Source: Peronospora farinosa (lineage: Eukaryota; Oomycota; Peronosporomycetes; Peronosporales; Peronosporaceae). Taken from it: a DNA stretch of 64,000 bases. The DNA is taken from NCBI GenBank assembly GCA_947646735.1, contig CANTFK010000670.1, positions 1 to 64,000 on the forward strand, read 5' to 3'. Below, in pieces: positions 2,889 to 32,811 of the stretch. The notes under the pieces were generated by a model. That model had not been told where the DNA came from. It saw nothing but the letters and a program-made list of their open reading frames with translations, and did not search any database. Within the stretch, counting starts at the first letter, position 1. Every line of letters starts with the position of its first letter. The position numbers and the translations under genes were made by a program.

Positions 2889-4473
2889 CGCAATGAGTCG
2901 TGCTGCACATCTAGGACATCTGCATGTCGTCAAGTGGTTGCACGAAAACAGGTCCAAAGGATGCGATGATTCAGTTATGGATTGGCCAGTCCGCCGCGGA
3001 TATTTGGAGATGGTCAAGTGGCTAGTCGAGCAAAAACCGGAAACGTGTCGTGACCATTTAATGGAGAAAGCTGCATGGCACGGTCATTTGGATGTGGTTG
3101 TCTATCTATATGAAAACACGAGGCAACAAGATTGTGATTTGGTTTTAGGTGCTGCCGCTAAAGAAGGATATGTCAAGGTAACTATCGCGTTGATGTAACG
3201 TCACTTAAAGACCATTGGTAGATCTCGATACACGATGCAGTGTTGCTTCCGGTGTTTGTTGAACAAGCTTCAAACCAGGGTGCAACTCCATCTTCTCCAT
3301 TTTGGAACAAAATATTGAAGATGCTCGAGCTCTTCTGTAACAGGGCATCTAGTTACACGTAAACATAAAGTAATATACTTAATGTAAGTTCTAAAAGTAT
3401 CCTTGATTACTTTTGACCTGTCACTTGGGTGCGATACACAAATGTGATCCACCCTCGTGAATGTGATATCCATTGATGGATTCACATGAGAAGGGATGAC
3501 GCTAGTTGAAGCTAGGCATCGCGAAGCCTCAGAAGGACGTCAGTTGCAAGCTTGCATCCAGATTTAAGCTCATGCGTCAGGATACGCTTCTAAAGAGTCG
3601 CGTATCCGATATATATATATAGCCAATCAGTAGTTAAGTATATATTTAGTTAAATCCTATTAAATATAAATCAATTTTGAATTTGCTAAATCAAAAGCAC
3701 CACGCACGAGAAGCCGAAAAGCTTCTACGTGACGTCGGTGACTTCTTGTCTTAGAAGTTCGTTGCACACTCGCTTAAGCGAGAGGCAACTGGTGGTACGA
3801 CTGCTTAAGCAGTCGACCAACCTCCTAACCACCCTCGCACGCGAAGGCAAGACGGTCTAACCGCTTCCTCGCTTGTGCTGAAGGTGTGTGCTCGTAGTAC
3901 GAGGCAACTTCGTAGAAGTGCTCGTCTACATCTTCCACGGTAATGAATTTGTTGCAGGTGTGATCACACTACTTGAACTAGTACTGCAACGTGGATATTA
4001 GGTCATGGATCGACAGTTTTTCAAGCGCATAAGCGAAGAGGATAAGTGTCAGTATGTTGCTGATGCTGCCGAATAATGGCAACATCGTATTAATGAGGTG
4101 GCTAATTGAGAATGGGACCCCATTGATCGTTCATACAACGATCTCTCTTGCCTCAGATCACGTGTTCAGAAAATAGTGTGTCGAAGTTACTTGGTGGTTG
4201 TCTGAAAGCGATCGCGTGGTTGTCATTCGTGCCGCTCTCCATAACAATGTCCGCAAGTTGTTGCTGTGGGTACTAGATAATACCGTCTTCAAGGATGAGA
4301 CTTCACGAAATGCTATTCAAAGTGCTCTTACGAGGGCCGATAACGTTACAGTACACTGGCTTTGTGATAACCTCTTGAATGATGACGCTCGTAGTTGGTG
4401 TTTCCCATTGCATCAAGAAGGATCGAGCACTGTGACGCCATTTATAAGGGATGCCCTTGCAGATAGACGCTAG
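2889..4473 (+). pseudogene. Ankyrin-repeat gene, truncated copy split by a solo LTR
   Basis: This is a degraded partial copy of the ankyrin gene at 33199-35253. Similarity begins abruptly at about 2889, matching the intact protein from about residue 363, so the first half is missing. The segment 2889-3335 encodes repeats such as GHLHVVKWLHENRSKG and GYLEMVKWLVEQKPE but picks up a TAA at 3196-3198. The coding sequence is then interrupted by an LTR (3336-3930) and resumes at 3931, reaching the same C-terminal end (RDALADRR) at 4473. Further stops and small indels occur between 3960 and 4200. The 3' flank is also duplicated. I infer a DNA-level duplication later hit by a retroelement. Confidence 0.9.
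3336..3930 (+). mobile_element. Solo LTR of gypsy family A with target-site duplication
   Basis: The 595-bp insert begins TGTAACAGGGC and ends CTCGTCTACA, so it has TG...CA ends. It is bounded by TCTTC at 3331-3335 and TCTTC at 3931-3935, a 5-bp target-site duplication. The intact ankyrin gene has a single copy of this site. The sequence matches, in opposite orientation, the LTR at 13649-14250 and the end pieces at 6607, 29435 and 31110. It is a solo LTR left by LTR-LTR recombination. It carries several short palindromes, including one centred on CTTAAG in GACTGCTTAAGCAGTC. Confidence 0.93.
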
Positions 4474-4871
4474 GAGCGAGCGCACTACGACTCAAGTAAT
4501 GTATTACGCGTTTACTATCATGCAAACGAACTAACACTACAAAGTGGTGTTTCTTGACTAGATAAGCATATTCCTAATGAGCCTAGACTACCTCCCATCA
4601 GAAAGTCTGTTTTTGCATCGAAGAAATGGCATCATCTTCTCTACCCAACACCCAGTGGCAAGAAATAAAAGTCGCTCCAGCTTTTGGGATTCTTTTGTGG
4701 GGTTTTGCCTCTAGAGACTGATTAGTTGCATTAAACTTTTGTGCGGGTACATGAAGCAACGCATTCGTTTCTAGGGTAAATGGGTCTTCAAAAGTCTTTG
4801 AGATCGTGAGATTCTTATCATTGTGAGGTTTGGCATCTGACGATATGCATTCATACTAGCGAATGCTTCAC
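4474..4871 (+). repeat. Duplicated 3' flank of the ankyrin gene
   Basis: This non-coding stretch is closely similar, in reverse orientation, to 32812-33198 downstream of the intact ankyrin gene. The duplication therefore carried about 390 bp of downstream DNA. The match stops near ATGCATTCATACTAGCGAA (about 4845-4863). At the other copy it stops exactly where the element-B fragment begins. I see no gene in it. Confidence 0.85.
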
Positions 4872-5490: not shown

Positions 5491-6446
5491 AAGGCAGGTG
5501 AAGGAACACTTGGGCTGAGGCGGAGGCCTTCATCATGCAGGATCTGAAGCCAGATGTTGTCAAAGTAGTGCTTAGGCTGTTGGAGAGCGCGGGTACTTAA
5601 GACGTGGTGCTGTGCCTATCGTTGGAAGAAGCTAAGCGAACCTTTGACGGTATCCTAGGCAAGACCAATGGCCTTGGACTCCAGAATGATGCTGTTTTAC
5701 TGCAAGAGTACCTGGAAGGCGACGAGTTTGTGGTTGATACGGTTAGCCGCAACGGAGAGCACAAGGTGACCGCCATTTGGAAGTATGACAAGCGTCGCGT
5801 GAACGACGCTGCATCTGTGTACTTTGGACTGTCATTGGTGCCTGCCGAGGGTGTTGTGAACGAGGTGATTGACTACCAGCTCCAAGTTCTCGGTTCGTAA
5901 TGCTATCTTCTTCGTAATTCGCTATTGTTGAGCTGTTCGAACTGACATTTTCGTGGCAACTGCTTGCTCCAACAGACGGCAATGGCCCTGCACATGGAGA
6001 AGTCAGGTTTTGCTGTGGCTCTCCAGTGCTAATTGATATTGATACCCGATACCACGGAGGGTAAGTGCGCTTGGGCGCCCCTCGCTACTATTTGCATTAG
6101 CTACAATCAAGTGATTGCTACCATCGACAGCATTTTGGATGGCGGAGCCTTCGCCAAGCTGGCTGAACGGCCTAGAAAGCTGCTTGCACACGGTTATGTG
6201 GTCATGATAGTGTCGTACAAGAACGGCGTCATGAAGAGCATTCCATGCATCGCAATAATTGAAAAGGTGTCAGCTTATCTCGAGAAGGCGATTTATGTTG
6301 CGCCGGGAGACAATATGCGTCAGACAGTGGATATGTTCACAACTCCAGGTAACATTATGCTTAAGCACAAAGAAGTGACGCGCTCGAGCAAAGTATTGCT
6401 CGTATTCGCGAATTCGAGGTCGAGGGGCTTTCGCGATGGAATATAG
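5491..6446 (+). pseudogene. ATP-grasp gene fragment, copy 1
   Basis: This is a broken copy of the 3' third of the ATP-grasp gene at 37245-40376. Similarity starts abruptly at about 5491 (AAGGCAGGTGAAGG). The first frame has a frameshift and a stop (near 5598) before a clean stretch at 5604-5900 encoding EEAKRTFDGILGK, LLQEYLEGDEFVVDTVSRNG and KYDKRRVNDAASVYFG. The intron of the parent gene is still present (about 5896-5976), so the copy is DNA-derived and not a retrocopy. The last part (6033-6446) encodes the C-terminal fold and ends slightly differently from the parent. It is missing the first ATP-grasp domain entirely. Confidence 0.92.
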
Positions 6447-6606: not shown

Positions 6607-6720
6607 TGTAGACGGGCACTTCTACACCCAAGTGACAGGTCAAAAGTAATCTTGAATACTTTTAAACCAAACATTAAGTATATTACTTAATGTTTACGTG
6701 TAACTAGATGCCCTGTTACA
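6607..6720 (-). mobile_element. 3' LTR of element A, internally deleted
   Basis: Read on the plus strand it begins TGTAGACGGGCACTTCTACA and ends CCCTGTTACA, the two ends of family A LTRs. Only 114 bp remain of about 600. Compared with the solo LTR at 3336-3930, the first 20 bp are joined directly to the last 95 bp, so the whole palindrome-rich middle is gone. It lies in the duplicated ATP-grasp flank. Confidence 0.85.
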
Positions 6721-6734
6721 CCATCCCCCGTTTT
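6721..6734 (-). other. Polypurine tract of element A
   Basis: On the minus strand AAAACGGGGGATGG lies directly before the U3 start (TGTAACAGG). Thirteen of 14 bases other than one C and one T are purines around the G run. This is the expected place and makeup for the primer of plus-strand DNA synthesis. Confidence 0.7.
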
Positions 6735-6793
6735 AGAACGATTTTTACATTTTGTAAAACATCGCCTAGGAGACAGAGAGACTTGCAAGCCTT

Positions 6794-6799
6794 TATAAA
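6794..6799 (+). promoter_or_regulatory. TATA-like box before the antisense gene of element A
   Basis: TATAAA occurs within CTTTATAAACG, 28-33 bp upstream of the ATG at 6827, between the LTR and the antisense coding region. Spacing would put transcription start close to the ATG, so a start further upstream in or near the LTR is also possible. The motif is common by chance; its placement is the only support. Confidence 0.35.
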
Positions 6800-6826
6800 C
6801 GCGCCGCTTTAGTCTGCTCAGTACTC

Positions 6827-8272
6827 ATGCCACCGAAACGTGGTAAGGCTGATGGGTCGCCTGCAAAGGCACCCATGCAGTCCAGCACTAAGCGCACGCG
6901 CCGCGATTTATCGCAGCCGTCGCAAAGTGCGTCAGGCACTGAGGTGAATCTTCCATCTCACGATAATGTGGATGAAGGTCCATCTCTCATTGTAGATTAC
7001 AATGAGACCACACCACTGCCATCACCCCAAAGTGGCGATGAGCGTAGTGCATTGATGGGACATATGTCCCCATCATTTGAGGCACCCGTCCTTGAGGGAG
7101 CATCTATGCTTCCTACAATCGAAGGTAAAACCTCGTCGCCTGCGCCTACGAGCGCAGCAACTAAGACTGAGCACGTTACTTCGAAAGGAGTAGTCGCGAC
7201 TCAGTCAGATGTGACTCCTCATGCTGATGTCTTGACAATCCATAATGGAGAGTCAGACTCAGGTGAGTGTGAGCTTAATGCTCCACCAAGTACACCTTCG
7301 GCCTCTCTAGCCCGCCGTCGCGAGGGCGGCTACGTGAGTGGTGGCTTGCCACCAATGCCACCTCCATCCGAGTGAATAAAATCGGAGGAGTCTAGTGCAG
7401 CGCTTTTGCAGCGTGCAACTATTGACGCTCATAAGTTTTATAGCGTCTTTCCGGTGTGGAAAAAGCAGGGCAAAGCACTTGGACGTGCTTTCCCAATTCC
7501 AGTCGTGCTGCGTTCTAACGAAATAGCCGACGAATATGAAGCTGAACTTCGGCGCCGTGTTACCTTGCATGAAGACGCAACTAAACAGCGGTCGCAGCGA
7601 ATCAGCTTCGCCATAAAGCGTGCGCATGAAATTATGGGTGGTAAGCGACCCCCAATTGATTCTCGCTACGCTTCTTCTGCTAGTCCTTCCGGACCTAGTA
7701 GAAAGACGTCAGCTGGTGCCGCTTTACATAAGCAGCCACCAGCCTAGGCACGTCAACGCGCAAAGCGTCCACAGGCTTCCACGAGTCAAAGCTCGTTGGG
7801 TAACCCTTCCACTGGACAAGGATTTGGAGCTTTCGCTTCACAAACCGGTGGGCCAACAGCCTTCCAACAAGGAAGCGCGTATTCCCTTCCGTGTCCACCA
7901 ACACAGGTGGCGCCCGATAGGAGCGGCCATTACGCCCACCTACTCGCGGCTGCCTACCCTGCTGCTGTTCAGTCGCAGGCTGAGTCCGCTGCGCTGAAGA
8001 GGCAGGTGACAGATCTCGAGAGTCAAGTCTCGCGACTGACCTCGGATCTGCGCGATGTGAGGACGAGGGACCGTCAGGGGTATGACCGCCTGAAGACCCG
8101 TTTGGACATCCTAGAGCGACTGGCGATGAGAGACCCGCGTCAAGCGCGGAGTACTTCTCGATCGTCGAGTCCTCTATCGCCTCGTTCGTATACGGGGAGC
8201 CTATCGGCTTCCTCGTCGCCTGATCGGCCGCGACGCTCGACTCACAGTCGACGTCACCATCGGTCTCGTTAG
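6827..8272 (+). CDS. Antisense gene of element A: spliced coiled-coil, Ser/Arg-rich protein
   Basis: This gene runs opposite to gag-pol. Exon 1 is 6827-7333 (start MPPKRGKADGS, 169 codons). An intron with GTGAGT donor at 7334 and TTTTGCAG acceptor ending 7411 keeps phase 0 and removes an in-frame TGA (7373-7375). Exon 2 is 7412-8272. The product would be about 455 residues: a disordered Ser/Pro/Thr-rich N-terminus, a conserved-looking centre (AHKFYSVFPVWKKQGKALGR), a coiled coil (LKRQVTDLESQVSRLTSDLR) and a tail rich in SR, SP and RR pairs. A TAG at 7745-7747 interrupts this copy; the second copy (31200-32072) has CAG there. Between the copies, one 11-codon stretch has five silent third-base changes and one replacement. 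The last 580 bp overlap pol. Function unknown; it may be a regulator of the element or a structural accessory. Confidence 0.65.
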
Positions 8273-11200
8273 ACCGATGTGGATATGTGATCTCTTCTGG
8301 ACCAACATACCGTTTCAGGCGACCCACGTAAAATACGGGGTGCGTCTTCATATACGGTGGGAGAGTGAGCCTATAATTTAGGTCTCCAACTTCTTTAACT
8401 ACTGTAAAGGGCCCAATGAATCGGGGCAATAGCTTAGTAGTACCACCAGGTAGTACAGAAATTTCATGTTTAGGTAGGGTAGCAGTACTTAATAGCACTT
8501 TTTCTCCCACACTAAAGTGCTCATTATTTTTGCGACCATGCTGGTCTGCATATTGTTTTTGCTTGTCCTGTGCTCTTGCCATCGCGTCACGGACTTTACT
8601 GTGATGCTGATCGCTCATCCACAAAGCGCTGAGCTTCGCTCACGCTTTTAGCATCCAGCTTGCCTATGACGCCTCCAAGAGGTCGTTCATGGGTCGACGC
8701 TGTTGACAACACTATAGTGCCATCGTCAAGGAGCACTGGCATTTCTTGCCGTGCCTCCTCTGTGACACCTATGGGTGTCGTGACCACTGCTAAAATAGCA
8801 GTGTCACTAGGGCAATTTTGGACCTCTTTGGCATTCGCACCGAGCGAAGTGAGGGGCCCTCCCCCACTACGACTCGGGCTGCGTACAAACGAAACTGGCG
8901 TTCGAGGATGGCGCAGTCCGTTAATGTAAAACGGTGTTTCACCCGTACTGGCGTGAACAATATTATTCATAGCGAACTCCACGAATGGCAATTGCTTGCT
9001 CCATTCTTTGGGAGTCGCTACTGTACGCAACACATCCGCCACAACTCGATTGGCCCGTTCTGTTTGGCCATCATTTGGGGACGATCGGCAGTTGACATGT
9101 GGAGCTTGCTACCCAGCAGCTCGAACACATGTCGCCAAAAACCCGACGTAAAACGCGGATCCCGGTCTGATACTATGGACTCGGGCATCCCGTGTAGTCG
9201 ATACACGTGATCCAGAAACAAGAGGGTAGCCTCTTTTCCTGGGATCTTGGTGCTACATGGTGCTAAATGCACCATCTTGCTCATTCTGTCTACGAAGACG
9301 ACGAGCCCCGTCCTGCCTTTATGGTCAGGCGGTAAGCCAAACATGAAGTCTAAACTGACCGACTTCCAACATTCAGTTGGAATCGGCAGTGGCTTTAGTG
9401 GCGCACTGTTTAAAAGTGCAGGCTTTATGCGCTGACACTCCTCGCAAGAGCGAATATAGTTGGCCACCCACCGATATAGGTGGGGCCACCAAAATTCCTC
9501 TGACACTAGTAAAAATGTCTTTTCACGGCCCAGATGCCCACTAGATGGCGGATCATGGCACTCGTGAAGTATCATCAGCTTGAGATCTGTGTCATGAGGG
9601 ACATGAGGATAGATTCTCAAGGGATCACAGGGTGACAGTTGATGCCATAACAGGCCATCACTGTAACTAAAGCGATTTAACTTCGCTTTGAGGTGCGACG
9701 GAAGGGTAACCTTTCGTCCACCAAAATGATCCAACAGCAGGAGACAATGTTCGTCCTGACTGTAACACTCCTTTATATCGGAGGCCATTGAGCTCGTCAC
9801 ATGGTAGGCCTTCATGGCTGCCAATGTTGACGACTCAACTTGTGCTTTCGCACGAGACACACTTTCCTGGTGTCTTGTCTCGAAGTCTGGTCTGCGCGAT
9901 AACGCGTCAGCCAATACATTCGACTTACCCGGCTTATATTCGACTTTGAAATTATATTCAGAGAATAATGTTAGCCATCTCGCCATTCTCGGCGAGAGGT
10001 GCGGTTAATCTATAGCGTTCCGCAGTAATGCGTAATCTGTGTATTCCACAAAAGGTTCGGTGCCCAAGAGGTGCACCCGAAACTTCACAAGGGCATACTT
10101 AATTGAAAGTAGCTCCTTGTCATGCACAGGTTAATTTTAGCTCGGCAGCTTTTAAAATCCGATACTGATAAGAAATGACACGGTCAACGCCGTTGTCATC
10201 CTTCTGCATGAGCGCGATGCCGATTGCAAAATTGCTTGCATCGCAGACGACGCTAAAGGGCTTATCCGCGTCTGGCAATGCCAAGACCGGTGCCTCTACA
10301 AGAGATTGCTTCACTGATGTGAACGCATCTACTTGCTCCTTTTACCAAGTCCATTATGTATCCTTTTTCAAAAGATCAGACAATGGCTTAGTCTGCTCCG
10401 CATAATTCTTGCTATACTTATGCAAGTAATTAGCGAGCCCAAGGAATTAGCGCAGATCCTTTACATGTCGTGGGACTGGCCATTCCTTTACAGCCTTGAC
10501 CATTTCTGGGTCTGCTCGTACACCGTGTGCACCTACGATGCAGCCCAGTACAGGTATCTCGGGGACCCCTATTACGCACTTTTGCAAGTTCACGTATAAT
10601 TGGGCGTCACCCAGAGTCTGCAACACAGCGTCTAAATGACGCTTGTGCGACTCTATCGCGCTCAGACCGTCCTCCTCCCTACTATGCACGAATACATCGT
10701 CAAAGTAATGGGGCGCGTAGGCACGGTGCTGACGCATCACGTGAGCCACCACTCGGTTGAATGTTGCCGGAGCATTTTTCAACCCTTGTGGCATCACAAG
10801 CCACTCCCACAGCATACCGCTTGGGGTGCTTACTGCCGTTTTGGCTACATCGGTATATCTCATGAGAACCTGATAGTAGCCATCCTTCAGATCCAACGCG
10901 GAAAAGATAGTTGACTTTCCCATGGAGTTCAACAAGACATCTTTCCGCGGGATCGGCGTTTGAGCCGGAATGGTGGAAGTGTTCAGCTTATTATAAGCAT
11001 GAACCACGCGCCATCCACCCGTTGCTTTACGCACACAGAAGGTCGGGCTGCAGTGAGGCGACTTGCTCTCACGTACATGTCCCGCCTTAGCTAGCTTGTC
11101 GAAGAACTCATCGATGTAATCGACTTGTTCCTTCGGCAACGGCCATTGCCTGGTCACACAATACTTGGTAGGTCAATTTCGTGCCTGATGCCCCTATCGG

Positions 11201-12500
11201 CCGGTAGGCGGCTCGGCACTTCTGCTGGAAACACATCACGGTGTTTCCACAGAACATCATAGAACGGGCTGTCCTTCAAGGCATCCCAGCCTTGAGCAGC
11301 GAACCGTTTCTTTCTGTCGGTCTTCAAGACGCTCTCATCCATTGTGGATGAAGAGAAACAGTCCACCACGTTCCCTTCTGGAACCGGTGCGACTATCTCG
11401 TGGATCTTCCCTTCCTTTAGTTCGGACAGGAACAGATCCCACGTCATCTCCGAGAGACTTACTATCTCCTCGGCAGATGCCAAGACAAGTTGGAGCACCT
11501 CAACTGAGGATGCCTCCGGCATTTTGTCTTCGACGGCCTCGAACAACTCGTTCGTAGGTCCGTCCTCTTGGACCGAGACTGATCCAAGGGTCACTCGTTT
11601 CGACGTGCCCTTGATCGTCTTAATACGTCTGGTGCTCGTTCTTCGAGTCACCACGACCTTTGACCTGAAAGAAGGTGTCGTTGCTATCTCAGCTAACGCA
11701 CTCCTTCCAACCGCACCAGGCTCATGACTCTGTGCCGGTTCTTGTGGCGCTTGACTTCCTGTCAGCCCACCATCAACTGCCACAGGCTCTCGGCTCTATG
11801 CAGGACTATTGGACGCATGACTACCTGTCATCGCCCCATTCACTACACCAGTCTTTTCGACCTGGGTAGGAATATGTGTCACCTGGCTTTCTGTCAAGAC
11901 TCTTCCAACTAGTCCAGGCTCAACGAGTTTGGGTAGTTCCTGGTGTCGATTGACATACCGTCATCGCACCCTCGACTGTGTTGGACACAGCATCAGTCAC
12001 ATAAGCCTCTCGCAAGAGCACATCCTTTCCGGTGTCTTGCGTAGAGCTAGCGACTGTGCGTGTACGCCAGTCTATCCATGGTTGGTGTTTAGCCAACTAT
12101 GGCATGCCTAGGATGAGGTCATACGGACTCTCCATACCTAGCACTGTGAACTTCTCTTTACAAGAGAAGTCACTGAAACTGAAGGCGAGTTCAACTTGAG
12201 CTCCCTCTGATTTAACGAGCGCGCCTTTCGCTAAACGAACGATCGCCTCTTCTCGCTTGCCATCCTGTCAAAGCGACTCATAACTCGCCGGTCTCTTTTT
12301 CAGAGCCGCGAGTTTTACAAAGTTTTGTGATGCACCCGAATCCACGAGAAGGGTCATCACTTGGTCATAGCCTCGTACTCCAGCGCTATAGACCAAAAGG
12401 GTTGAGGTCCGACCTTTCGGAACCTCAGGGACTATGCTACCCATTTGTTCGATCACTCTGAACTTAGGGGTAGCTTCAGAGTCCGCGACAGTAGGGCATC
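7695..12500 (-). pseudogene. Element A pol: protease, RT, RNase H, integrase, chromodomain
   Basis: Minus-strand domains appear in gypsy order but in several frames. Protease: LLVDSGASQNF (about 12345) and LILGMP (about 12110). A linker follows at 11783-11154. Reverse transcriptase (11157-10447) has CVRKATGGWRVV, FSALDLKDGYYQV, MPQGLKNAPATFNRV and the catalytic YFDD. RNase H (about 10314-9900) has FSVVCDASNFAIG and SNVLADALSRR. Integrase (9986-8596) has the CEEC zinc-site end, LDFMFG and SDRDPRF; the usual Glu-containing block is mutated and shifted. The C-terminus (8624-7695) has LPRFIGPFTVVKEVG and a chromodomain with ILVQWKGYPTSFDSW. At least five frameshifts or stops make it inactive. Confidence 0.9.
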
Positions 12501-12506
12501 CCGCCC

Positions 12507-13577
12507 CTACTGCGCTCCCGCATTTCCCGACCCATCTTGGGCAGGTGCTGAACCCGTTCGTCGTGCACGCTGGTTTTTCGCACCTCCCTTCGGGTTGGGA
12601 GACCTTTTGCTGGCTGCCTTAGCACCAGCAGCTACTTTGGCATAGCAGCGAGCCATCATATGGCCTCGCTTGCCGCACTTGTAGCAGATCACGTCTGCAT
12701 TGCCTAACCCCATAGGAGTGGCATCAGACTTCTCGGACGACGACCTGTAATAGGCTGTCGCCGAGGCGCTGTTGTAGGATTGCTCCTCAACTAAGGCAAT
12801 GTCAATTGCCTCTTCCATCGTCGCTGGCACCTTTCTGAAAAGGGCCTGACGCGATGGGCCGTGCCTAAGTCCATTCATGAACGTGGCCACCTTAATACGT
12901 TCTGGTATCGGTTCCCCATTGATGGACGCCGACAGCGAACGCATCTCCTGCACAAATTCTTGCAGAGAGCGTTTCGCCTGTCGTGCTCCAAAGAAGCGCG
13001 CCATAAGCAACACTTCGTTGTTAGGCGACTGATACATGGCGCGAATCTTTGCCTTAAAGATCTCCCATGATGGAAACGCATCAGCATTTGCCATCAGCGC
13101 AGAGTATGCCCACTCTGACGCTTTGCCACGCAAGTTGGACATGGCATACGACACCATTCTGGTGTCGTCTTCGATGAGCTGCGCCACTCCACATTGCTCA
13201 GCTGCTAATATCCAGTGAACAATCGTGTGAGGGGTAGTTCCATCGAACTTCGGAGGGTTCATCCGAATGGGACTCGGTTGAGTAGGCCGGGCAGAGAGCG
13301 TCTCAACAGTTTTGTTGAGCGCCTCATTCCGTGCCTTCTCAAGACTAAGCTCATCCTGAGTCTTATTGATGGACTCAGCTGTGGCTTGGCTGTTTACCTC
13401 GGACGCGTTTCTACGCTGTCCGAGCATAAACGCCTCAAATTACTCCAACTGAGCAACATGTTACTCAGGAGGACAATGCAAGAGGTTGACCAGGGCTTGT
13501 TCACCAAGTCCCTGCGCCATATACTCTGACAACTCCCTATGATGTTGGGAGAGGTAAGGGAAGTCACTCCAGTCCAT
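12507..13577 (-). pseudogene. Element A gag
   Basis: The first ATG after the primer site is at 13577 (MDWSDFPYLSQHHRE). The frame passes two TAA stops near 13460 and 13440, then is open from 13427 to 12507. It contains the gypsy gag core (IVHWILAAEQCG, AYSALMANADAFPSWEIF, FFGARQAKRSLQEFVQEM) and one CCHC zinc knuckle, CYKCGKRGHMMARC, followed by a basic tail. Gag forms the virus-like particle and the knuckle packages RNA. The stops, and the frame change to protease at about 12500, point to decay; a natural frameshift at the gag-protease border cannot be excluded. Confidence 0.88.
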
Positions 13578-16094: not shown

Positions 16095-17520
16095 TGTGGT
16101 GGAGTGGGATTCGAAAAATTGCTGATGCGATCCCAACTCTCCACTGGCGCCCGGACGACCGACTAACGGAGGGGGTACCCCGATTCCGTGTGTATAGCCT
16201 TCCTCACCTTGTGTACCCGTCGGGAGGGCGGGTTGCTCTCTTCTCGGTAGACTTGAGTCGATGTTGAACTTGATTGTGTTAGGATAGGTGGGGGGCGATC
16301 GCGTGGAATTCCTCACACGATCGCAGTTGTTCTTGAGGTGCTCTATTTGAGTCGCCCTGATCTCTCTTGAGATCGCCTTGTCCAAAAAATGTAGATACTT
16401 GATCCACTTGATATACTTGATCTTCTGACCACTTGAGCCGTCTCGCGATCTTGTACCTTGTCCTTTTCTTGTTGTGCTGCGTCCAATCGCAGGGGAAGTT
16501 GTTTGTTTTGAGAGTTCTTGTAATCCCTGGCCAAACAATCCAGGGATATGACTTGTGTAGTATGTAGACTTCCTTGAGACGTCGGGAGGCCAAAGAATCC
16601 AGCCCGGAAGAGAAGTCGACACGTGTATTTAGAAGCAAATTGAACTCTGTTAATGTTAACCAATCAAATACCAAAACCTATGATCTTGACTATCTGTAGC
16701 TCAGGATCTATTGCCACGTATCGCCCTTTCGGAAAAATCAGATCTTGTAATGTGGTCCACTCCAATATCGCCGCGATCTGGATCGCTACCTCGCTCGGAT
16801 CTAATACCATTTTAGTATCGGATCGTGGTACTAATAATTACTAACGGATCGTGGTACTAAATAATTAGTATCGGATCGCGAATCTAATAATTAGTATCGG
16901 ATCGCGAATCTAATAATTAGTATCGGATCGCGATACTAATAATTAGTATCGGATCGCGATCCGCCGGATCACGACTTGTCCTCTCCACCGTTTCTCAGGT
17001 CATGTGAGATGGTCCATCTATGTGACATGTCATGTCCACCATTCCAGTCCTCCATAGCGACGTGATCCACACCAGACCGTCTTCCACATACTTGGATGTA
17101 CCCATCCTCCTTCTTAGCGACCGCGTTCACGCGGATCGCCATCGGAAATACTGGAGATCGCAATAGCGTAGTTCCTAGGCCATATTTGACCCCACATAGA
17201 AGTGCAAACTACACCATTCACTGTTTTCCATCCTATTTGACATCATCTTGAAACCTTTCTGCGAGATCGCGACTCATCAATATTGGCCGCGAGATCGCGA
17301 CTCATCAATATTGGCCATTTCGGACTTAACCGAAAATATGCGATCACACTTGGCGAAATTCACTCCTTCACTTCGCCACAATCGTCCCCTGCACCGATAG
17401 CCCACATACAGTGTTGGCCTAACTGTGCACTGTCTCGCTTCACTCTTCTCGTCACTTCGTCCCCTATGGCCAGATCTCCACCCGAAAACGATCGCCACCC
17501 CCAAACTGGTGTGCTCGTCA
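16095..17520 (-). mobile_element. 3' LTR of element B2
   Basis: On the plus strand it begins TGTGGTGGAGTGGG and ends GTGCTCGTCA, giving TG...CA ends. It aligns with 26915-28238. The U3-side boundary is set by where the two LTR copies stop matching, about 8 bp beyond the CA, so it could be off by that much. It includes a tandem repeat (16808-16975) and the first 18 codons of the antisense frame. Confidence 0.75.
16808..16975. repeat. Tandem palindromic repeat in LTR B
   Basis: About six units of 25-30 bp with the core TTAGTATCGGATCGCGATACTAA, itself nearly palindromic (written here in parts: TTAGTATCG, GATC, GCGATACTAA). The equivalent places in the other LTRs have about three units (27628-27705 and 28670-28745). 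The repeat number is therefore variable between LTRs of one family. Confidence 0.85.
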
Positions 17521-18575
17521 CGCGCGATCCAACGATGAATTCCTCTACCGGATCGCGTATCCTGCTCCCGTCTACCCGGATAATCCTTCCTCCCGTTACG
17601 GATCGTCAAAACGCGATCTCGTTGGTTTCTTCATTGTATGACCGCCTGGAAGCCCAGGATACCATCGTGGAAAGCTATCACTCCATGGAAAATGCCTTGC
17701 AGGAGCAGGAATTTCGTGGAAATCAGCTGGAGACGGAACTCAACTCGTATCACGGGTTGGTACCTCGACTGTGCACATTCGTCTTGCGTCGAGATGAAGA
17801 GTTGCGTCAACAACTTGATGCCGCTCTCCACATGGCCGAAGGTCTCGACGAGGAACTGAACCAGCTAACGGATCAGTCTCAGGAGATCGCCGATCTGAAG
17901 AATGCCTTGTTTCGAGCCAATGCAGAGAAACATCGCCTGCAGGATAAATTCCGCCGTGAGGCGGCCAATCTTCAGCGAACTCTGGAAGGAAAATTCCGGC
18001 AGCAGATCGCGTCCCTCCAACAGCAACTGGACTCCATCCTCGCACAGCGTAATACGGCAGACAGTGCTTTGGCCGCTGACTTTCGACGCATGAAAAGCAA
18101 GGCATCCAAGTACAAGAAAGCTCGTTCTCAGGCCCAGCAAGCCGCGAAACAACTGCAAGAGACACTGAGCGCGCTCGAGCTTGATCATGATCGCCTCCTG
18201 AGTGCGAGTATTCGGAACGACGCAGCTTTGGATCGACTTCGTACCGAAGTTGCAGATCGAGAGGCAGAGCGCGATCTGGCCATCCAGGATCGAGATTTAC
18301 TTCGTTCGCATCTGGCAGAATTGGCTACGGGCTTACTTCCTTCTCCGACTAGCCTTCTCGCGCTTTCCAATCACTCGTCACCCAATCGCAAACGTGCATC
18401 ATCTTCACCGACTCTGGACGTCCCCTGTAAACGTCCCCGCAGCGCTTCCGGTACTTCTGCTCAATCTGCGACCTCGGAGCGATCTGAAATTTCGGCGCGA
18501 TCTGGTACTCTGACGCGATCTGGTACTCCGCCGCGATCTGGTAATTTAACGCGATCTGGTACCTCGGCAGTCTAA
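17466..18575 (+). CDS. Antisense ORF of element B2: long coiled-coil protein with RSGT tail
   Basis: This 369-codon frame runs opposite to pol, between its end and the 3' LTR. I chose the ATG at 17466 (MARSPPENDRHPQ) because it is also present in the other LTR (about 28182, MARSPPEKDRHPR); the frame is open upstream to 17283. The first 18 codons lie inside the LTR. Residues about 60-310 form a long predicted coiled coil (for example LRQQLDAALHMAEGLDEEL). After it come a basic stretch (SPNRKRASS, CKRPRSAS), which could be a nuclear localisation signal, and the repeats ARSGT-LTRSGT-PPRSGN-LTRSGT. No enzyme motif is visible. The function is unknown. It is laid out like the antisense protein of element A but not obviously homologous. 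Confidence 0.65.
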   Translation: MARSPPENDRHPQTGVLVTRDPTMNSSTGSRILLPSTRIILPPVTDRQNAISLVSSLYDRLEAQDTIVESYHSMENALQEQEFRGNQLETELNSYHGLVPRLCTFVLRRDEELRQQLDAALHMAEGLDEELNQLTDQSQEIADLKNALFRANAEKHRLQDKFRREAANLQRTLEGKFRQQIASLQQQLDSILAQRNTADSALAADFRRMKSKASKYKKARSQAQQAAKQLQETLSALELDHDRLLSASIRNDAALDRLRTEVADREAERDLAIQDRDLLRSHLAELATGLLPSPTSLLALSNHSSPNRKRASSSPTLDVPCKRPRSASGTSAQSATSERSEISARSGTLTRSGTPPRSGNLTRSGTSAV

Positions 18576-18625
18576 TACTTTGGCGCGATCTGGTACCTCA
18601 AAACGGTCTGCCAAGTCGGTGCGAT
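18470..18625. repeat. 18-bp tandem repeat GCGATCTGGTAC-type
   Basis: Units such as GCGATCTGGTACTCTGAC repeat about seven times, first in the antisense frame, where they code for RSGT steps, and then past its stop at 18573-18575. B1 has related units at 15840-15910. The continuation beyond the stop suggests the array grew as DNA and only partly as protein. Confidence 0.8.
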
Positions 18626-18953
18626 CCGTTATTGTTGGATTCTTCGGAGCCTTGGCGGAACCAATATCGATCCTCTATCGCGGATCACCCCGGTACGTCC
18701 CTCGCCCGTTTATCCAGTAAATTTTTTTCCAAACAGCAATAGGGATCCGATAACACTTCTTAATCGCTCAATACAATTCCATTTTGTTTCTCCTTTTCGT
18801 TAATCATCTCCGAAATTGTCTTCTTTTGTTGGGCTTCTTTAGCCGCGATCTCGTCTTCCAGACCTTCGATCGCCATACTCATTACACACAAATTTCCTTT
18901 CCACCATCCAGCACCTTCATGCATATTATACCATCCCCAACACTCGATCTTCG

Positions 18954-21900
18954 TTAGCCACCAGATCCCTCTTCATGTGATTGCATCACTTCAAAACGAT
19001 TCCGGCTAATCTTGCCACGTTCAAAATCTCGCAATAAGGCACCACAATTTAAGTCGGCTTCATCCACCCAGGATGGTTTAGCATGACCTTTCCAGTAGAC
19101 TTTAAACTGTCTATGTACTCGTCCAAAACGTGTCTTTCTATCAGATCGTACATCCACAATCTTTTCCACTTCGAATTCATCGTCTCCCAGATTACCTTCA
19201 AAACTGTCTTCTGGCAAAAGCGCTTCATCAAAATCGAATCGATATTCTTCTTCGATCGTCAGCAAATTTTTTGGACGATCAGGGAACGTCTTCACTTTCT
19301 TCAACTTGGATATATGTACGACGGGAAATAATCGATATGGCGTACCAGCAATCTCCAGTCGGACAGCGTGATCTCCACACATCTCTTTTACTCGAAAAGG
19401 TCCATGCCACATATGTGCTAGCTTTCGAGCGTACCCTTCTTTCACACGATCCAAATATAACCAGACTTGCGCCCCTGGCTCAATTTCGTGAGGCTTGAGA
19501 TCTTCATTGTGGCGATCAGCACGTGTTTGGATCTCAGTCCTGAGTCTCTCATTTACTGCTTCTCTCGCCCGCTGATAATGCCGCTGCACATGATATCGCC
19601 CCCTACGTGGATCGCGATCTCGACGCCTAGTACTTCCTAATGGTAACGTAGCTTCCAACGTAGATCTTGGGTCCCAACCATGAATCAAGAAAAATGGCGT
19701 TTCGCCGCGCACCCGATCTTGGGCGGTATTGATTGCGAAAGTTAGACGTTCGGCATACTCATCCCAGTCTTGTTGATTAACGTCAGAGACATACATCTTT
19801 AATGCACGAGTCAGAGTTTGCACCATACGTTCCGCAGTCCCATTCGCTTGAGGGCGATATGCCATCGTTGCCCTTTGCTTTTGCCCAATAAGTCGATTGA
19901 ACGCACGAAAAAAATCCGACATAAATCCAGGTTCCCGATCGTGCCGTATCGCTTCACTCGCACCGAATCGTCGAAAGACACACTCCTCGTAATTCTCGGC
20001 GATCGTCTGAGCTGTTCTAGATTTGCTCGCCTTGGCAACCACATAGCCCGAAAATAGATCGACCCAGACCAATAATTCAGTGTTGCCTTTGAAAGATCTA
20101 GGCAGCGATGGAATATGATCCATGGCAATAATCTGGAACGGATAAGTAGCTTGTAAATTTCCCGGAGACTCTCCATTAATAACCGGACGTCCTTTTCCAG
20201 TCTCGCAGTCAGTGCATTCGCTCACATATCGTTGTACACTGCGATACAGGCCTCTCCAATGAAAACGAGATCGGATCCGTTGATACGTCCTACCGATTCC
20301 CTGGTGCCCTCCTTCCAAACTGGCATGGTAGTGATGCAGAAAATCTTGCTGAAGAGTTTCTGGCACCACCAAACGAGCAATTCCATCGAGATCGTCCGAA
20401 TTTTTCACAGCTCCCGGGCAAAAATATAGAATATCGCTTTCATCCACCTCATAATCACTTGCAATCTTGGCGCATGACTTCGCTTCTTCCATACTGAGAT
20501 TCGTTATATCACCAATCAGAAAAATCTTTAGGTTAGCGATCCAACATTCCTCATCTTGAGCTTGTCGTATACGTTCACTTCGCATTTGCTGCACAAATTC
20601 TTCTTGCAATATCTCGGGTGGTTGACGTCTTCTCCGGGTTGATCTGGTAATCGCAGCAACTTTAACCACCGATTCGGTCCGTTTCGACTTCAACAACTCA
20701 TCCAGTCTATTAAGGGTAATGAGATCTTGGCGATCTCCTTCCGAAGTGATGACCACACCTTGTTCCTTCTGTAAAGCAGTACTCGCCAGTCGATCTGCAC
20801 TTTGGTTCCAGTCGCGCTTCATATGTAAGAACTCATGGATCGGCCATGATCGAAGCTTCTCCATTGCCTTCTGTCGCAACAACTGCAGTCCAGGAGCCTT
20901 GCAATCGATTTCACCCCGCATCTGTCGAATCACTAGGTTGGAGTCGCCACAAATAATAACGCGTCCCCTAGTCTGATTCTCCAACAGATCAAAGCCTAAT
21001 AGTAAACCCCGATATTCGGCTTCGTTCACTGTTAAGTCCGTTGCATATTCCGATGCAGCAGCCACAATAGTCCACTCAGGAAGTTTCCATATTATCGCAC
21101 TGTATGATCCCCCCTTTCGCTTGGTTCGTGCCGATCCATCGAAACTGACGACCAAGAGACTTTCATCTTCTTCCACCGTAGGCGGTGGCATACTTAGAGT
21201 TTGCCTTGGCTGTTTCCGGGGAGCGATCGCGATCAACACTTCATCGACTTCTTCACGGGGAGTCACACTTGCAGCCAGGGCACCAAGTATTTCATCTTCG
21301 CCCTTTTCACATTTCTTGATCTCCAAAGTCCAAGTCGATAATAATGCGGCCCACCTACCTAGCCTGCCATTGAGACCGGAGGATTGCACCAACCAGGCCA
21401 TCGTCGAGAAACGCGTAAGAACTTTAATCTCTCGCGAGACTAGCATGCAATAACATAAATCCAAAATCCGAAGTAAAGCTAGTATCTCCTTCTCGACCAT
21501 TCCGTAATTGATTTCATTAGGCTTCAGCGTTCGGCTTGTAAACGTAACTGGCCAGTATGTGCCATCATACTCCTGCAACAAAGCTGCTGAAACTGCCCAT
21601 TTACTCGCATATACGACAATTACCGGAGGCCGATCTGGATCGAAGTGTCTGAGGATCGGGGTATTAGCGATCTTGGCTTTCAACATGGTAAATGCGATCA
21701 TCGCTTTTTCCCATCGAGTCCGTCCTTCTGGATCTGGATCGTCCCCAATATCGAACTTTTGATCTGAATCATTCCTGGTTGCGATAGTCGAATCCAATGC
21801 ATTCATCTTATCAGAACAGCGGATTTCGTGGAAATCTGCTTCCCGTAATTCATATAGCACTGACGCATAAATCGCAAAGTCTTCGACAAATCGACTATAG

Positions 21901-22334
21901 TAATTCAAGCTTCCCAGAAACGATTGCATCGATCGCAACGTCTTTGGGAACGGAATGTTCACCAGCGATCCCAAATCCTTTGGATGAGCTTCGATTTCTG
22001 CAAGTGAGACTTGATGACCCAGGTAATCCACTTTACGTCGTCCCCAGAAACTTTTAGCGAGACTGATCGACAAATTCCATTCATTGCATACTTCTAGCAA
22101 TCGCTTTACCTTATCATATAAGGAGGCCCACGATGTTGCTGGAATCAATATGTCATCAATATATGACCTTCGGCCGAGCACAGATGGCTTCTGGCTAGTA
22201 TCCGATTCGCCTTCAGTGAATACATCCGTCAGCTTTGGCGATCCCGTTTTTGTAACAGTGGGGTCGAGTGATCCTGTAGCAATTGCATTTGTATCCGTAC
22301 CGATCTTGAGGTATCCATTACAGTGCATTATCAA
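18954..22334 (-). CDS. Element B2 pol main part: RT end, two RNase H domains, integrase, chromodomain
   Basis: A single open frame of about 1,120 codons. It begins within reverse transcriptase, the true start being upstream across a one-base shift. YIDD is at residues 58-61, preceded by about 40 unusual residues. A gypsy RNase H follows (VVYASKWAVSAALLQ). Then comes a second RNase H of the aRNH type, with SFDGSA, VNEAEYRG, CGDSNLV and NQSADRLAS carrying the D-E-D-D residues. Integrase has an HHCC site (HHYHASLEGGH ... CTDC), MDHIPS, RHDREPGF and NGTAERM for D-D-E. The C-terminal chromodomain contains RQFKVYWKGHAKPSW. All catalytic residues I can check are present. Confidence 0.93.
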   Translation of the reverse strand: MIMHCNGYLKIGTDTNAIATGSLDPTVTKTGSPKLTDVFTEGESDTSQKPSVLGRRSYIDDILIPATSWASLYDKVKRLLEVCNEWNLSISLAKSFWGRRKVDYLGHQVSLAEIEAHPKDLGSLVNIPFPKTLRSMQSFLGSLNYYSRFVEDFAIYASVLYELREADFHEIRCSDKMNALDSTIATRNDSDQKFDIGDDPDPEGRTRWEKAMIAFTMLKAKIANTPILRHFDPDRPPVIVVYASKWAVSAALLQEYDGTYWPVTFTSRTLKPNEINYGMVEKEILALLRILDLCYCMLVSREIKVLTRFSTMAWLVQSSGLNGRLGRWAALLSTWTLEIKKCEKGEDEILGALAASVTPREEVDEVLIAIAPRKQPRQTLSMPPPTVEEDESLLVVSFDGSARTKRKGGSYSAIIWKLPEWTIVAAASEYATDLTVNEAEYRGLLLGFDLLENQTRGRVIICGDSNLVIRQMRGEIDCKAPGLQLLRQKAMEKLRSWPIHEFLHMKRDWNQSADRLASTALQKEQGVVITSEGDRQDLITLNRLDELLKSKRTESVVKVAAITRSTRRRRQPPEILQEEFVQQMRSERIRQAQDEECWIANLKIFLIGDITNLSMEEAKSCAKIASDYEVDESDILYFCPGAVKNSDDLDGIARLVVPETLQQDFLHHYHASLEGGHQGIGRTYQRIRSRFHWRGLYRSVQRYVSECTDCETGKGRPVINGESPGNLQATYPFQIIAMDHIPSLPRSFKGNTELLVWVDLFSGYVVAKASKSRTAQTIAENYEECVFRRFGASEAIRHDREPGFMSDFFRAFNRLIGQKQRATMAYRPQANGTAERMVQTLTRALKMYVSDVNQQDWDEYAERLTFAINTAQDRVRGETPFFLIHGWDPRSTLEATLPLGSTRRRDRDPRRGRYHVQRHYQRAREAVNERLRTEIQTRADRHNEDLKPHEIEPGAQVWLYLDRVKEGYARKLAHMWHGPFRVKEMCGDHAVRLEIAGTPYRLFPVVHISKLKKVKTFPDRPKNLLTIEEEYRFDFDEALLPEDSFEGNLGDDEFEVEKIVDVRSDRKTRFGRVHRQFKVYWKGHAKPSWVDEADLNCGALLRDFERGKISRNRFEVMQSHEEGSGG

Positions 22335-23029
22335 TTAGACGTTGGTAAATCTGCGGAGCGTTTTTTAGCCCAAACGGCATTCGTAACCACTCGAACAGGC
22401 CTGACGGCGTGATAAAAGCAGAAATCATCCTTGCTCGCTCGGTCATTTCCACGACCCAAAATCCACTGGCCATATCCAACGAACAATACCACATAGTCTT
22501 ATCCATATCTTGCAATAATTCGCTAATCAGCGGCATAGGATACACCATCAATCTCGTGAGTTGATTCACCCGCCGATAGACAATACACAAACGAATGTCG
22601 ACACTATTCTTTTTTTATAATTACCACAATCGGCGAAGCCCATGGTGATGTCGACGGCTGGATAATCCTGGCTGATAGTAATCCTTTGATTAGGTCAGCT
22701 AACTTCTCGCGAAATTTGGGAGCGACCGGTCGTACTCGTTGTGCGATCGGGTGTGCTCCACCAACATCGATATCACATACTGCTCCTCGAGCTGCAGGAG
22801 GAAGCGCATTTCCTTTGCCGATGAGTAAGTGTCGGTTCGCCCAAATCAATTGCCGTAGACCTTCTTGGTCCTTGGTTAAAGGAACTCCCGGATCGCCCAC
22901 TTGGATATCATCAAGCGTAACTTCTTCGGTGGATGACACAATCTCAGGCAAGACAGCCATATGCTGATCCACGTCTTCGGCATACAATTCACCACTCTCG
23001 TGATAATACATCGAGTCTTCAGGCTTCAT
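22318..23029 (-). pseudogene. Element B2 reverse transcriptase N-terminal part, shifted twice
   Basis: 23029-22604 encodes the start of reverse transcriptase (PVAPKFREKLADLIKGLL, STSPWASPIVVI) and ends IIKKE-stop. An extra A in an A7 run near 22612 causes this: with one A fewer the frame runs on into VYRRVNQLTR. The next part (22590-22318) has LDMASGFWVV and MPFGLKNAPQIYQR, then meets a stop; a one-base change near 22325 would join it to the frame of 22334-18954. In the catalytic block, MASGFW occupies the place of the first Asp motif (LDMASG). Confidence 0.85.
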
Positions 23030-23096
23030 CTTTACACTTCCTCCGGCTAAATTACCTTCGTCGTTGATAGTCGTAGTATCACTAGCTTGCTCATGT

Positions 23097-23300
23097 TCTC
23101 GCAGATCACGATCCAGATCGGCCAGATCGCGGTCATCTATTACCGGATCGACCAGATCGCGGTCATCGCGATCCAGATCGGCCAGATCGCGGTCATTAAC
23201 TACCGGATCGGCCAGATCGCGGTCCTTAATTGTCGGATCGGGGTCATCGGCCGATCGCGGTCATTAAACCAGATCAGCCAGATCGCGGTCATTAATTGTC
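23097..23300 (-). repeat. Tandem repeat coding an Asp-Arg-rich linker between protease and RT
   Basis: Units around GACCGCGATCTGGCCGATC recur about seven times with spacers such as CCGGTAGTTAAT. On the minus strand they code for steps like NDRDLADPV and DRDDRDLVDP. A one-base loss within a unit near 23265 ends the upstream frame with TAA, so the protease and RT frames were probably one polyprotein. Slippage in the array is the likely cause. Confidence 0.8.
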
Positions 23301-24556: not shown

Positions 24557-24618
24557 AAATGCATAAATGCAGAGCCTAGAACGCTCGGCTCGTACCAGAT
24601 TCCAACCTGGCGAGCGTC

Positions 24619-29502: not shown

Positions 29503-29993
29503 GTCTCCCAGCTTATGCCGGCGCGTGCATCTTGTGTGACGTTGCTCTCATTCTTCTACCAATCTACTACAGCTCGAAAAGCCCCTCGACCTCGAGTTCG
29601 CTAATGCGAGCAATACTTTGTTTGAGCACGTCACGGTCCTTGTGCGTAAGCATAATGCTACCTGGCGTTGTGATCATATCCGCTGTCTGACGCATATTGT
29701 CTCCCGGCGCGACAAAAATCGCCTTTTGAAAAAAGCTGACATCTTTTCAGTTATTGCTATGCCTGGCATGCTCTTCTTGACGCCGTTCTTGTACGACAAT
29801 CTCATGGCCACAAAAGCGCGTGCAAGCAGCTCCCTAGGCCGGTCAGCCAGCTTGGCGAAAGCTTCGCCATCCAAAATGCTGTCGATGGGAGCAAACACTT
29901 GGTTGTATCCCAAGCAAATAGTAGCGAGGGGCCCCAAGCGAACTCACCCCTGTGGTATCGGGTATCAATATCAATAAGCACTCGAGAGCCACT

Positions 29994-30604: not shown

Positions 30605-31109
30605 CCGATACAGCAACGACAAACTTGACCTCTCCATTTGAAGGGCTATTGTGTCTGTTGGAGCAAACATTCGCCACGAAAATGTCAGTTTAAATGGCTC
30701 AACAATAGCGAAGTACGTAGAAATAATCAATACGCACCGAGAAATTGGAGCTGAAGGTCAATCACCTCGTTGACAACACCCTAGGCAGTCACCAATGACA
30801 GTCCAAAGTACACAGATGCATATGCAGCGTCGTTCACGCGGCGCTTGTCATACATCCAGATGGCGGTCACCTTGTGCTCTCCGTTGCGGCTAACTGTAAC
30901 AGCGACATACTCGTCGCCTTCCAGGTACTCTTGCAGTAAAACAGCGTCATTATCAATTCCAAGGCACTTGGTCTTGCCAAAAGTACCGTCAGAGGCTCGC
31001 TTATCTTTGTTTAACGTAGGCACAGCACCACGTCTTTAGTCCCCGCAATCTCCTATGGCTTTAGCACTACTTTGACAAAATCTGGCTTCAGATCCTGCAT
31101 GATAAAGGG

Positions 31110-31199
31110 TGTAGACGGGCCTTCTACAAATTTGCCTCGTGCTAATTAGCACACACCTTCTGCACAATCGAGGAAGCGGTAAGACCGTCTTACCCTTAA
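31110..31199 (-). mobile_element. LTR A start fragment
   Basis: Begins TGTAGACGGGCCTTCTACA and follows the first 90 bp of family A LTRs (minus orientation), including the block ending CCGTCTTACC. It has a perfect palindrome GTGCTAATTAGCAC where other copies read GTACTACGAGCAC. It is joined directly to a copy of the element A antisense gene. Confidence 0.8.
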
Positions 31200-32072
31200 G
31201 TGCTTCAGGCACTGAGACGTATCTTCCATCTCACTATTAATGTGGATGAAGGTCCATCTCTCATTGTAGATTACAATGAGAGTACGCCATTGCCATCACC
31301 CCAAAGTGGAGATGAGCGTAGTGCATTGATGGGACATATGTCCCCATCATTTGAGGCACCCGTCCTTGAGGGAGCATCTATGCTTCCTACAATCGAAGGT
31401 AAAATCTCGTCGCCTGCGCCTACGAGCGCAGCAACTAAGACTGAGCACGCTACTTCGAAAGAAGTAGTCGCGACTCAGTCAGATGTGACTCCTCATGCTG
31501 ATGTCTTGACAATCCATAATGGAAAGTCAGACTCAGGTGAGTGTGAGCTTAATCTCCACCAAGTACACCTTCGGCCTCTCTAGCCCGCCGTCGCGAGGGC
31601 GGCTACGTGAGTGGTGGCTTGCCACCAATGCCACCTCCATCCGAGTGAATAAAATCGAAGGAGTCTAGTGCAGCGCTTTTGCAGCGTGCAACTATTGACG
31701 CTCATAAGTTTTATAGCGTCTTTCCCGTGTGGAAAAAGCAGGGCAAAGCACTTGGACGTGCTTTCCCAATTCCAGTCGTGCTGCGTTCTAACGAAACAGC
31801 CGACGAATATGAAGCTGAACTCCGGCGCCGTGTAACATTGCATGTAGATGCAACGAAACAACGGTCGCAGCGAATCAGCTTCGCCATGAAGCGTGCGCAT
31901 GAAATTTGGGTGGTAAGCGACCCCCAATTAATTCTCACCACGCTTCTTCTGCTAGTCCATCCGGACTTAGCAGAAAGATGTCAGCTGGTGCTGCTTCACA
32001 TAATCAGCCACCATCCCAGGCACGTCGACGCGCAAAGCGTCAACAGGCTCCCATGAGTCAACGCTCGTTGGG
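31200..32072 (+). pseudogene. Second copy of the element A antisense gene
   Basis: This copy matches 6931-7800 and lacks the start and the region overlapping pol. The reading is the same (MGHMSPSFEAPVLEG, FYSVFPVWKKQGKALGRAFP). The intron at about 31606-31684 keeps the GTGAGT donor and TTTTGCAG acceptor. A one-base deletion near 31552 breaks exon 1. At the place of the TAG in the first copy this one has CAG, showing the ancestral frame was open. It ends at CGTTGGGT, fused to element B sequence at 32073. Confidence 0.85.
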
Positions 32073-32811
32073 TCCGGAGGATTGCACCAACCAGGCCATC
32101 GTCGAGAAACGCGTAAGAACTTTAATCTCTCGCGAGACTAGCATGCAATAACATAAAATCCAAAATCCGAAGTAAAGCTAGTATCTCCTTTTCGACCATT
32201 CCGTAATTGATCTCATTCGGCTTCAGCGTCCGGCTTGTAAACGTAACTGGCCAGTATGTGCCATCATACCCCTGCAACAAAGCTGCTGAAACTGCCCATT
32301 TACTCGCATATACGACAATTACCGGAGGTCGATCTGGATCGAAGTGTTTGAGGATCGGGGTATTAGCGATCTTGGCTTTTAACATGGTAAATGCGATCAT
32401 CGCTTTTTCCCATCGAGTCCGTCCTTCTGGATCTGGATCGTCCCCAATATCGAACTTTTGATCTGAATCATTCCTGGTTGCGACAGTCGAATCCAATGCA
32501 TTCATCTTATCAGAACAGCGGATTTCGTGGAAATCTGCTTCCCTTAATTCATATAGCACTGACGCATAAATCGCAAAGTCTTCGACAAATCGACTATAGT
32601 AATTCAAGCTTCCCAGAAACGATTGCATCGATCGCAACGTCTTTGGGAACGGAATGTTCACCAGAGATCCCAAATCCTTTGGATGAGCTTCTATTCCTGC
32701 AAGTGAGACTTGGTGACCCAGGTAATCTACCTTACGTCGTTCCCAAAAACACTTGATCGACAAATTCCATTCATTGCATACTTCTAGCAATCGCTTTACC
32801 TTATCATATTC
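32073..32811 (-). pseudogene. Element B3 fragment: RT end and first RNase H
   Basis: About 740 bp closely similar to 21372-22120 of B2. It encodes VDYLGHQVSLAGIEAHPKDL, FLGSLNYYSRFVEDFAIYAS and VVYASKWAVSAALLQ. A 12-bp gap near SIKCFW and a shift near 32150 mark decay. Both ends are abrupt joins: to the antisense-gene copy at 32072 and to the ankyrin flank at 32812. Confidence 0.9.

Follow-up and report, generated by a model that had tools for sequence, protein, structure and literature searches.

We found that a plus-strand open reading frame of 481 codons (6827..8272), located in a 64,000-nucleotide stretch of Peronospora farinosa DNA (the window), is likely to be an uninterrupted antisense accessory gene of a chromodomain Ty3/gypsy retrotransposon of Peronospora, its proposed transcription and role included. 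The frame, hereafter the aORF, extends from an ATG at 6827 to a TAG at 8272 and sits between the 3′ LTR and pol, against the minus-strand element that carries it (element A). Conserved homologues, open copies and purifying selection support a protein-coding antisense gene that overlaps the pol chromodomain. A sequence-only reading had proposed a plus-strand gene of about 455 codons, joined across a 78-bp intron and overlapping the pol chromodomain by about 580 bp. The frame and the overlap, which measures 578 bp, held up, whereas the spliced length gave way to 481 unspliced codons.

Element A contains gag (12507-13427), reverse transcriptase (RT; 10447-11157), RNase H pieces (10008-10341) and integrase (9018-9986) on the minus strand at 9018..13427, all with broken frames. 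This gypsy order, with a chromodomain at the pol C-terminus, places it among chromodomain Ty3/gypsy elements. The RT_RNaseH pieces are followed by Integrase_H2C2, and we obtained no RVT_3 match at E ≤ 1 that would indicate a second, archaeal/plant-type RNase H in element A. The 3′ LTR of this copy (6607..6720, minus strand) is internally deleted to about 115 bp, whereas 32 other copies have one of about 600 bp. LTR ends of the form TG...CA were found, with a polypurine tract (PPT) beside the 3′ LTR, reading CGGGGGATGG followed by TGTAACA at 6730-6714 on the minus strand. The outer LTR terminus was present in 33 of 40 copies and was flanked by 33 different 12-base sequences, showing that the aORF moves with the element.

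For the comparison of genomic copies, we drew on the window's own 46.85-Mb genome and used the best 40 of 539 first-look candidates, including the copy in element A (copy A); further copies are likely. The aligned span covered 1435-1450 of 1446 bp in all 40 copies, and the 39 other copies were 94-96% identical to copy A. Without any splicing, the aORF was open from ATG to stop in 18 out of 40 copies, with a length of 480-481 codons (480 in two of them), and in 16 of these 18 pol, too, was open where the two frames overlap. Copy A itself is interrupted at codon 183 (TGA, 7373..7375) and codon 307 (TAG, 7745..7747); at codon 307, the other 39 copies all encode an amino acid. The window holds a second, partial and decayed copy on the plus strand (copy B, 31198..32073), which can be aligned to 6925-7801 of copy A and was not part of the 40-copy set. 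Four further copies (L041-L044), 91-96% identical to the six copies with which they were compared, were likewise kept outside the counts.

Related proteins extend beyond this family. We identified 18 homologues, of which the 8 named ones are all unnamed products of Peronospora (P. effusa and P. farinosa); P0001, with 481 aa, comes from Peronospora effusa and has 19 members. Identity was 62% for P0007, 50% for P0011, 47% for P0014 and 46% for P0012 and P0013, and homologues at 46% identity keep the length and the motifs. In the same genome, we found no family nearer to P0007, P0012 or P0014 among at least 89, 88 and 101 matches listed, respectively. The protein has a basic N-terminus (KRTRR or similar), a pI of 9.7-10.2 in the four sequences checked and a conserved core at about residues 190-270. 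Structure prediction from 17 sequences gave a mean pLDDT of 46, with a helix at residues 366-435 (pLDDT 59-95 over the block, above 90 at 391-430) and values below 50 for most residues outside it. The aORF protein is thus predicted to be basic and largely disordered apart from a single long coiled coil.

Pfam and the PDB yielded only weak coiled-coil matches, which we regard as noise. TRP28 (PF04195) had no match among six homologues at E ≤ 1, and no relative was confirmed in bacterial or archaeal genome contigs or in viral contigs. These results bear on whether a host gene, or a second element, was captured in reverse by transduction or nested insertion. The inverse orientation and a start of its own beside the LTR would suit such an origin, but neither Pfam nor the PDB holds a relative beyond coiled-coil noise, and the 8 named homologues all belong to the unnamed products of Peronospora. 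We consider capture unlikely, though an old event of this kind is conceivable.

We classed variants across the 40 copies as silent or replacement and derived the expectation from the same type of base change. Variants that arose after insertion are mostly singletons, and variants shared by several copies have passed through active elements. In the part of the aORF outside the overlap (868 bp), variants present in at least three copies comprised 33 replacement and 31 silent changes, compared with 46.6 and 17.4 expected, giving a dN/dS-like ratio of 0.40 (p=2e-4). The ratio was 0.32 after we removed two of three like copies on contig 213. By contrast, singletons (222 replacement, 86 silent) had a ratio of 0.88, and variants in exactly two copies (41 replacement, 16 silent; ratio 0.93) showed no constraint. 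For the whole aORF, variants in at least three copies gave a ratio of 0.46 (p=1e-4; Fisher's test versus singletons, p=4e-4). The excess of silent changes that the sequence-only reading had called for in the plus-strand frame over all genomic copies is therefore present among variants in at least three copies.

Four of the five control frames had ratios of 0.90-2.56. The fifth, minus frame f2, had a ratio of 0.51 (p=0.005), its third positions coinciding with those of the aORF; three shared stop variants fell in minus f2 and none in the aORF. As a control from pol, the same method gave 0.27 for SH3 and 0.40 for integrase in the 37 of 39 copies that could be aligned, with L003 (short) and L025 and L027 (low similarity) omitted. 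Set against these two ratios, that of the aORF indicates that constraint on the antisense gene is similar in degree to that on pol.

We also compared copies A and B directly. The codons for VTLHxDATKQR do differ by five silent changes and one replacement, as had been noted. Over the stretch that can be aligned, 6929-7792, the two copies differ by 27 replacement codons, one of which is the stop, and 14 silent ones; the full totals of 55 and 16 include 30 non-homologous codons before 6929, which we excluded. VTLHxDATKQR is hence a favourable patch, and we set the pair aside as evidence for selection because it offers too few changes and is too decayed, using the 40 copies in its place.

This pattern also bears on the idea that this DNA owes its retention to a non-coding antisense RNA, which would form a duplex with the genomic RNA and lead to silencing or limit copy number, with any protein secondary. 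The available text of PMC7264820 discusses antisense transcripts acting in these ways in other elements. Such an RNA, however, predicts neither variation specific to codon position nor residues conserved in distant homologues, and we think this explanation quite improbable. The evidence favours a protein-coding aORF, and selection also suggests that the antisense frame would be expressed.

The 3′ end of pol (7695..8624, minus strand) encodes an SH3_Tf2-1 domain (PF24626, residues 40-107), a long linker and the chromodomain (PF00385, residues 253-302). The pol frame ends at 7695, and the 578 bp shared with the aORF divide into two parts. Opposite the pol linker (7869..8272), where the aORF encodes its coiled coil and basic tail, the antisense frame had a ratio of 0.40 (14 replacement and 17 silent changes, p=0.008) and the pol frame a ratio of 2.41 (26 and 5). 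The chromodomain (7719..7868, minus strand), with six shared variants, leans towards constraint in pol, where the ratio was 0.28 (two replacement and four silent changes, p=0.13), and not in the antisense frame (six and zero), both on small numbers. Over the whole overlap, the antisense frame gave a ratio of 0.57 (p=0.06) and the pol frame one of 1.30. Each third position of the antisense frame is a second position of pol, so ratios in the two frames are not independent. Read most simply, the overlap is divided between the two genes, the chromodomain going to pol and the rest to the aORF, and it looks like one stretch of DNA shared out by domain. The C-terminal half of the aORF would fit inside pol because the linker opposite it appears to tolerate many sequences.

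An antisense frame left open by accident, through pol codon structure or base composition, and never expressed, could draw on the 578 bp that lie opposite pol. The 868 bp outside pol are nevertheless under the constraint described above, the antisense frame is the constrained one in the linker, four of five control frames stand at 0.90 or higher, and homologues at 46% identity retain length and motifs. We judge an accidental frame very unlikely. Indeed, 40 copies, homologues at 46-62% identity and frame-specific purifying selection place the aORF beyond chance.

The 78-nt segment that had been read as an intron (7334..7411, plus strand) corresponds to codons 170-195 of the aORF. GTGAGT at 7334 and TTTTGCAG ending at 7411 do delimit 78 nt in phase 0, as the sequence-only reading had it, but the segment is coding and is open in 37 out of 40 copies. 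Likewise, the TGA that splicing was said to remove is present in both copy A and copy B, yet splicing of copy A would remove the codon-183 stop only, leaving that copy closed by the TAG at 7745 (codon 307). Across the 40 aligned copies, codon 183 encodes Trp in 36 and Cys in three and is a stop in one (copy A); copy B, outside the set, has the stop too. The 21-mer ending at codon 183 had 18 exact matches, of which three had the stop and 15 had Trp. Among the four further copies, codon 183 was Trp in three and Glu in L043, with a stop in none. The three Cys183 copies (L018, L021 and L029) all lie on contig 213 of G000 with frames still open, representing either a local duplication or a common lineage.

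Homologues with 46-62% identity (P0007 and P0011-P0014) align residue by residue across the 78 nt. Trp183 was present in 8 out of 8 sequences of a first alignment and in 15 out of 17 homologues of a larger one (17 of the 18, P0018 being omitted), in which P0016 and P0017 are out of register at this position. P0013 (YGS...LLAR) has a Gly codon at the GT site and an Ala codon at the AG site, and P0014 (YAS...LLAT) has Ala codons at both, with the frame continuing through in each case, so neither a GT donor nor an AG acceptor can be encoded there. The GT and the AG are kept in 40 out of 40 copies, as they would be for an intron; this retention is not remarkable, since a typical site varies in only about one of the 40 copies. 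For the 78 nt alone, variants in at least three copies gave a ratio of 0.90 (seven replacement and two silent changes), which is not significant on so few sites. None of the eight named Peronospora proteins lacks exactly these 26 residues. The Peronospora effusa gene models P0004 and P0010 omit the end of the 26 residues together with downstream residues, with differing borders; these skips are probably annotation introns placed around decayed stretches.

The 78-nt stretch is ordinary coding sequence in which a few decayed copies have a nonsense change, the TGA, at Trp183. The argument that an intron on this strand is evidence of real antisense transcripts consequently falls away. Open unspliced copies and residues conserved in homologues likewise eliminate an intron as a need of the open frame. 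The proposal of an antisense gene of some 455 codons, spliced through a 78-nt intron in phase 0 that takes out the TGA, retains almost no credibility: GTGAGT and TTTTGCAG, GT and AG in every copy and a TGA in both window copies speak for it, but the stop occurs in 1 out of 40 aligned copies, the segment is open in 37 out of 40, its residues are conserved in distant homologues, the splice dinucleotides cannot be encoded there in two of these, no named protein drops exactly these 26 residues even if P0004 and P0010 skip part of them, and splicing leaves copy A closed.

The unspliced aORF starts 106 bp inside the 3′ LTR and extends in the direction opposite to gag-pol, covering the final 578 bp of pol. 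The 106-bp spacer between the 3′ LTR and the aORF (6721..6826) contains the PPT-like CGGGGGATGG (on the element strand) as well as TATA-like and YTCANT-like motifs. The consensus of the initiator (Inr) is YTCANTYY. Among the 40 copies, a TATA-like motif was present in 36, YTCANT in 31 and strict YTCANTYY in 10. The spacer is about twice as variable as the aORF (1.8-2.2 versus 1.0 variant copies per site), and no promoter constraint was seen in it across copies. TATA boxes were not detected in core promoters of Phytophthora infestans, in which start sites lie 32-144 nt upstream of the start codon, according to the available text of PMC3599244. Given that range, transcription of the aORF would start in the spacer or at the LTR edge. 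We treat the TATA and Inr motifs as a hint only, because the spacer is not conserved and TATA boxes went undetected in P. infestans. We infer that the aORF is transcribed from an antisense promoter located either in the spacer of 106 bp or in the LTR next to it.

The product would be a basic, partly disordered, coiled-coil nuclear protein. Its composition, together with plant analogues, suggests the nuclear role, and the predicted coiled coil, again with plant analogues, makes self-association probable. Such a protein may act in trans on the nucleic acid or chromatin of the element, as a regulator or as a nuclear cofactor of retrotransposition.

Flowering plants, one fungus and deltaretroviruses provide known examples of antisense accessory genes in LTR elements. 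HBZ of HTLV-1 has a spliced form and a leucine zipper, whereas the aORF is unspliced. In plant elements, matches to Smc domains indicate coiled coils. The plant aORF-3R, as presented in the available sources (gene23 of Grande, RIRE2, and ORF4 of Retand with TRP28), are likewise extra antisense ORFs between pol and the 3′ LTR that occur in most copies. A nuclear role is suspected for them, and some match Smc domains, in the portions available of PMC11963269 and PMC7264820. What defines an aORF-3R, namely an antisense ORF from pol to the 3′ LTR in many copies and in more than one species, was found for the aORF as well, the distant homologues being compared as proteins, except that the aORF reaches into pol, past the interval of that definition. 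It also differs in having no TRP28 or other confident Pfam domain and an oomycete host, and element A differs from the plant elements in combining one RNase H with a chromodomain and in the 578-bp overlap of the aORF with pol. The same portions of PMC11963269 and PMC7264820 place the plant ORFs between pol and the LTR and describe no such overlap with pol. The aORF is an oomycete variant of the antisense accessory ORFs known from plant Tat/Retand elements.

Two further likenesses are by description. HBZ, too, lies antisense at the 3′ end of an LTR element, and its product is nuclear (available text of PMC11963269 and PMC7264820). The brtn gene of Boty/BcGypsy1, from the filamentous plant pathogen Botrytis cinerea, is likewise an extra gene carried antisense by a gypsy element, although its host is a fungus (PMC7264820 and PMC8365987, as far as available). 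Chronos, described in the available text of PMC5348765 with dual RNase H, integrase and chromodomain, is like element A an oomycete gypsy element with a chromodomain at the pol end. Element A is not Chronos, since its H2C2 integrase comes after the RNase H pieces with no match to a second RNase H. The main text of PMC5348765 nowhere uses the terms antisense, opposite or additional ORF, and among the matches listed for open-licence literature, judged by titles and abstract openings, none reported an antisense ORF in an oomycete element.

A second minus-strand gypsy element occupies about 16095-28033 of the window, with pol at 18954-22334 and direct repeats (16095-17288 and 26915-28033) that we took as LTRs. 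Its pol contains integrase, RT_RNaseH and RVT_3 domains as well as a chromodomain match slightly below the Pfam cut-off (E=2e-5; 24.9 versus 25.1 bits), and with dual RNase H, integrase and this match the element fits Chronos on its predicted domains. Between the pol stop and the 3′ LTR lies a plus-strand antisense ORF (17466..18575), whose ATG at 17466 was present in 21 out of 21 copies. The best 40 of 388 candidates, itself included, match it over most of its length, and the longest open stretch was 399-456 codons in 16 of the 20 fetched copies. Judged by eye, its product resembles a coiled coil over a long stretch and has a basic tail. Variants in at least two copies gave a ratio of 0.50 (18 replacement and 18 silent changes, p=0.03) and singletons 0.67; the minus frame with matching third positions gave 0.49 and the other four frames 1.4-1.9. 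Short tandem repeats are present at its 3′ end (18479-18562).

BLASTP revealed no relation between this second antisense ORF and the aORF of element A. That two gypsy families of one genome each carry an antisense ORF, the two being unrelated, is poorly explained by chance, and an oomycete aORF sharing 578 bp with pol, accompanied by an unrelated second one, suggests a general need of such elements. A wider proposal, which we advance tentatively and hold to be perhaps slightly more apt to fail than to stand, is that antisense coiled-coil genes are standard in oomycete Ty3/gypsy elements, arose at least twice (in element A and in the Chronos-type element) and are convergent with those of plant Tat elements, that of element A being overprinted on pol, with selection for the antisense protein dictating which amino acids the linker between SH3 and chromodomain carries. 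The aORF itself also implies that certain 'unnamed proteins' annotated in downy mildews are transposon antisense genes.

Elsewhere in the window, inverted and direct repeats of 86-98% identity link 5505-6373 with 29508-31016 and 37189-38198, and 4084-4864 with 32808-33588. They extend into a minus-strand ATP-grasp ORF (37800-40376) and the 3′ end of a minus-strand ankyrin ORF (33199-35253), and are duplicated host-gene fragments around nested elements.
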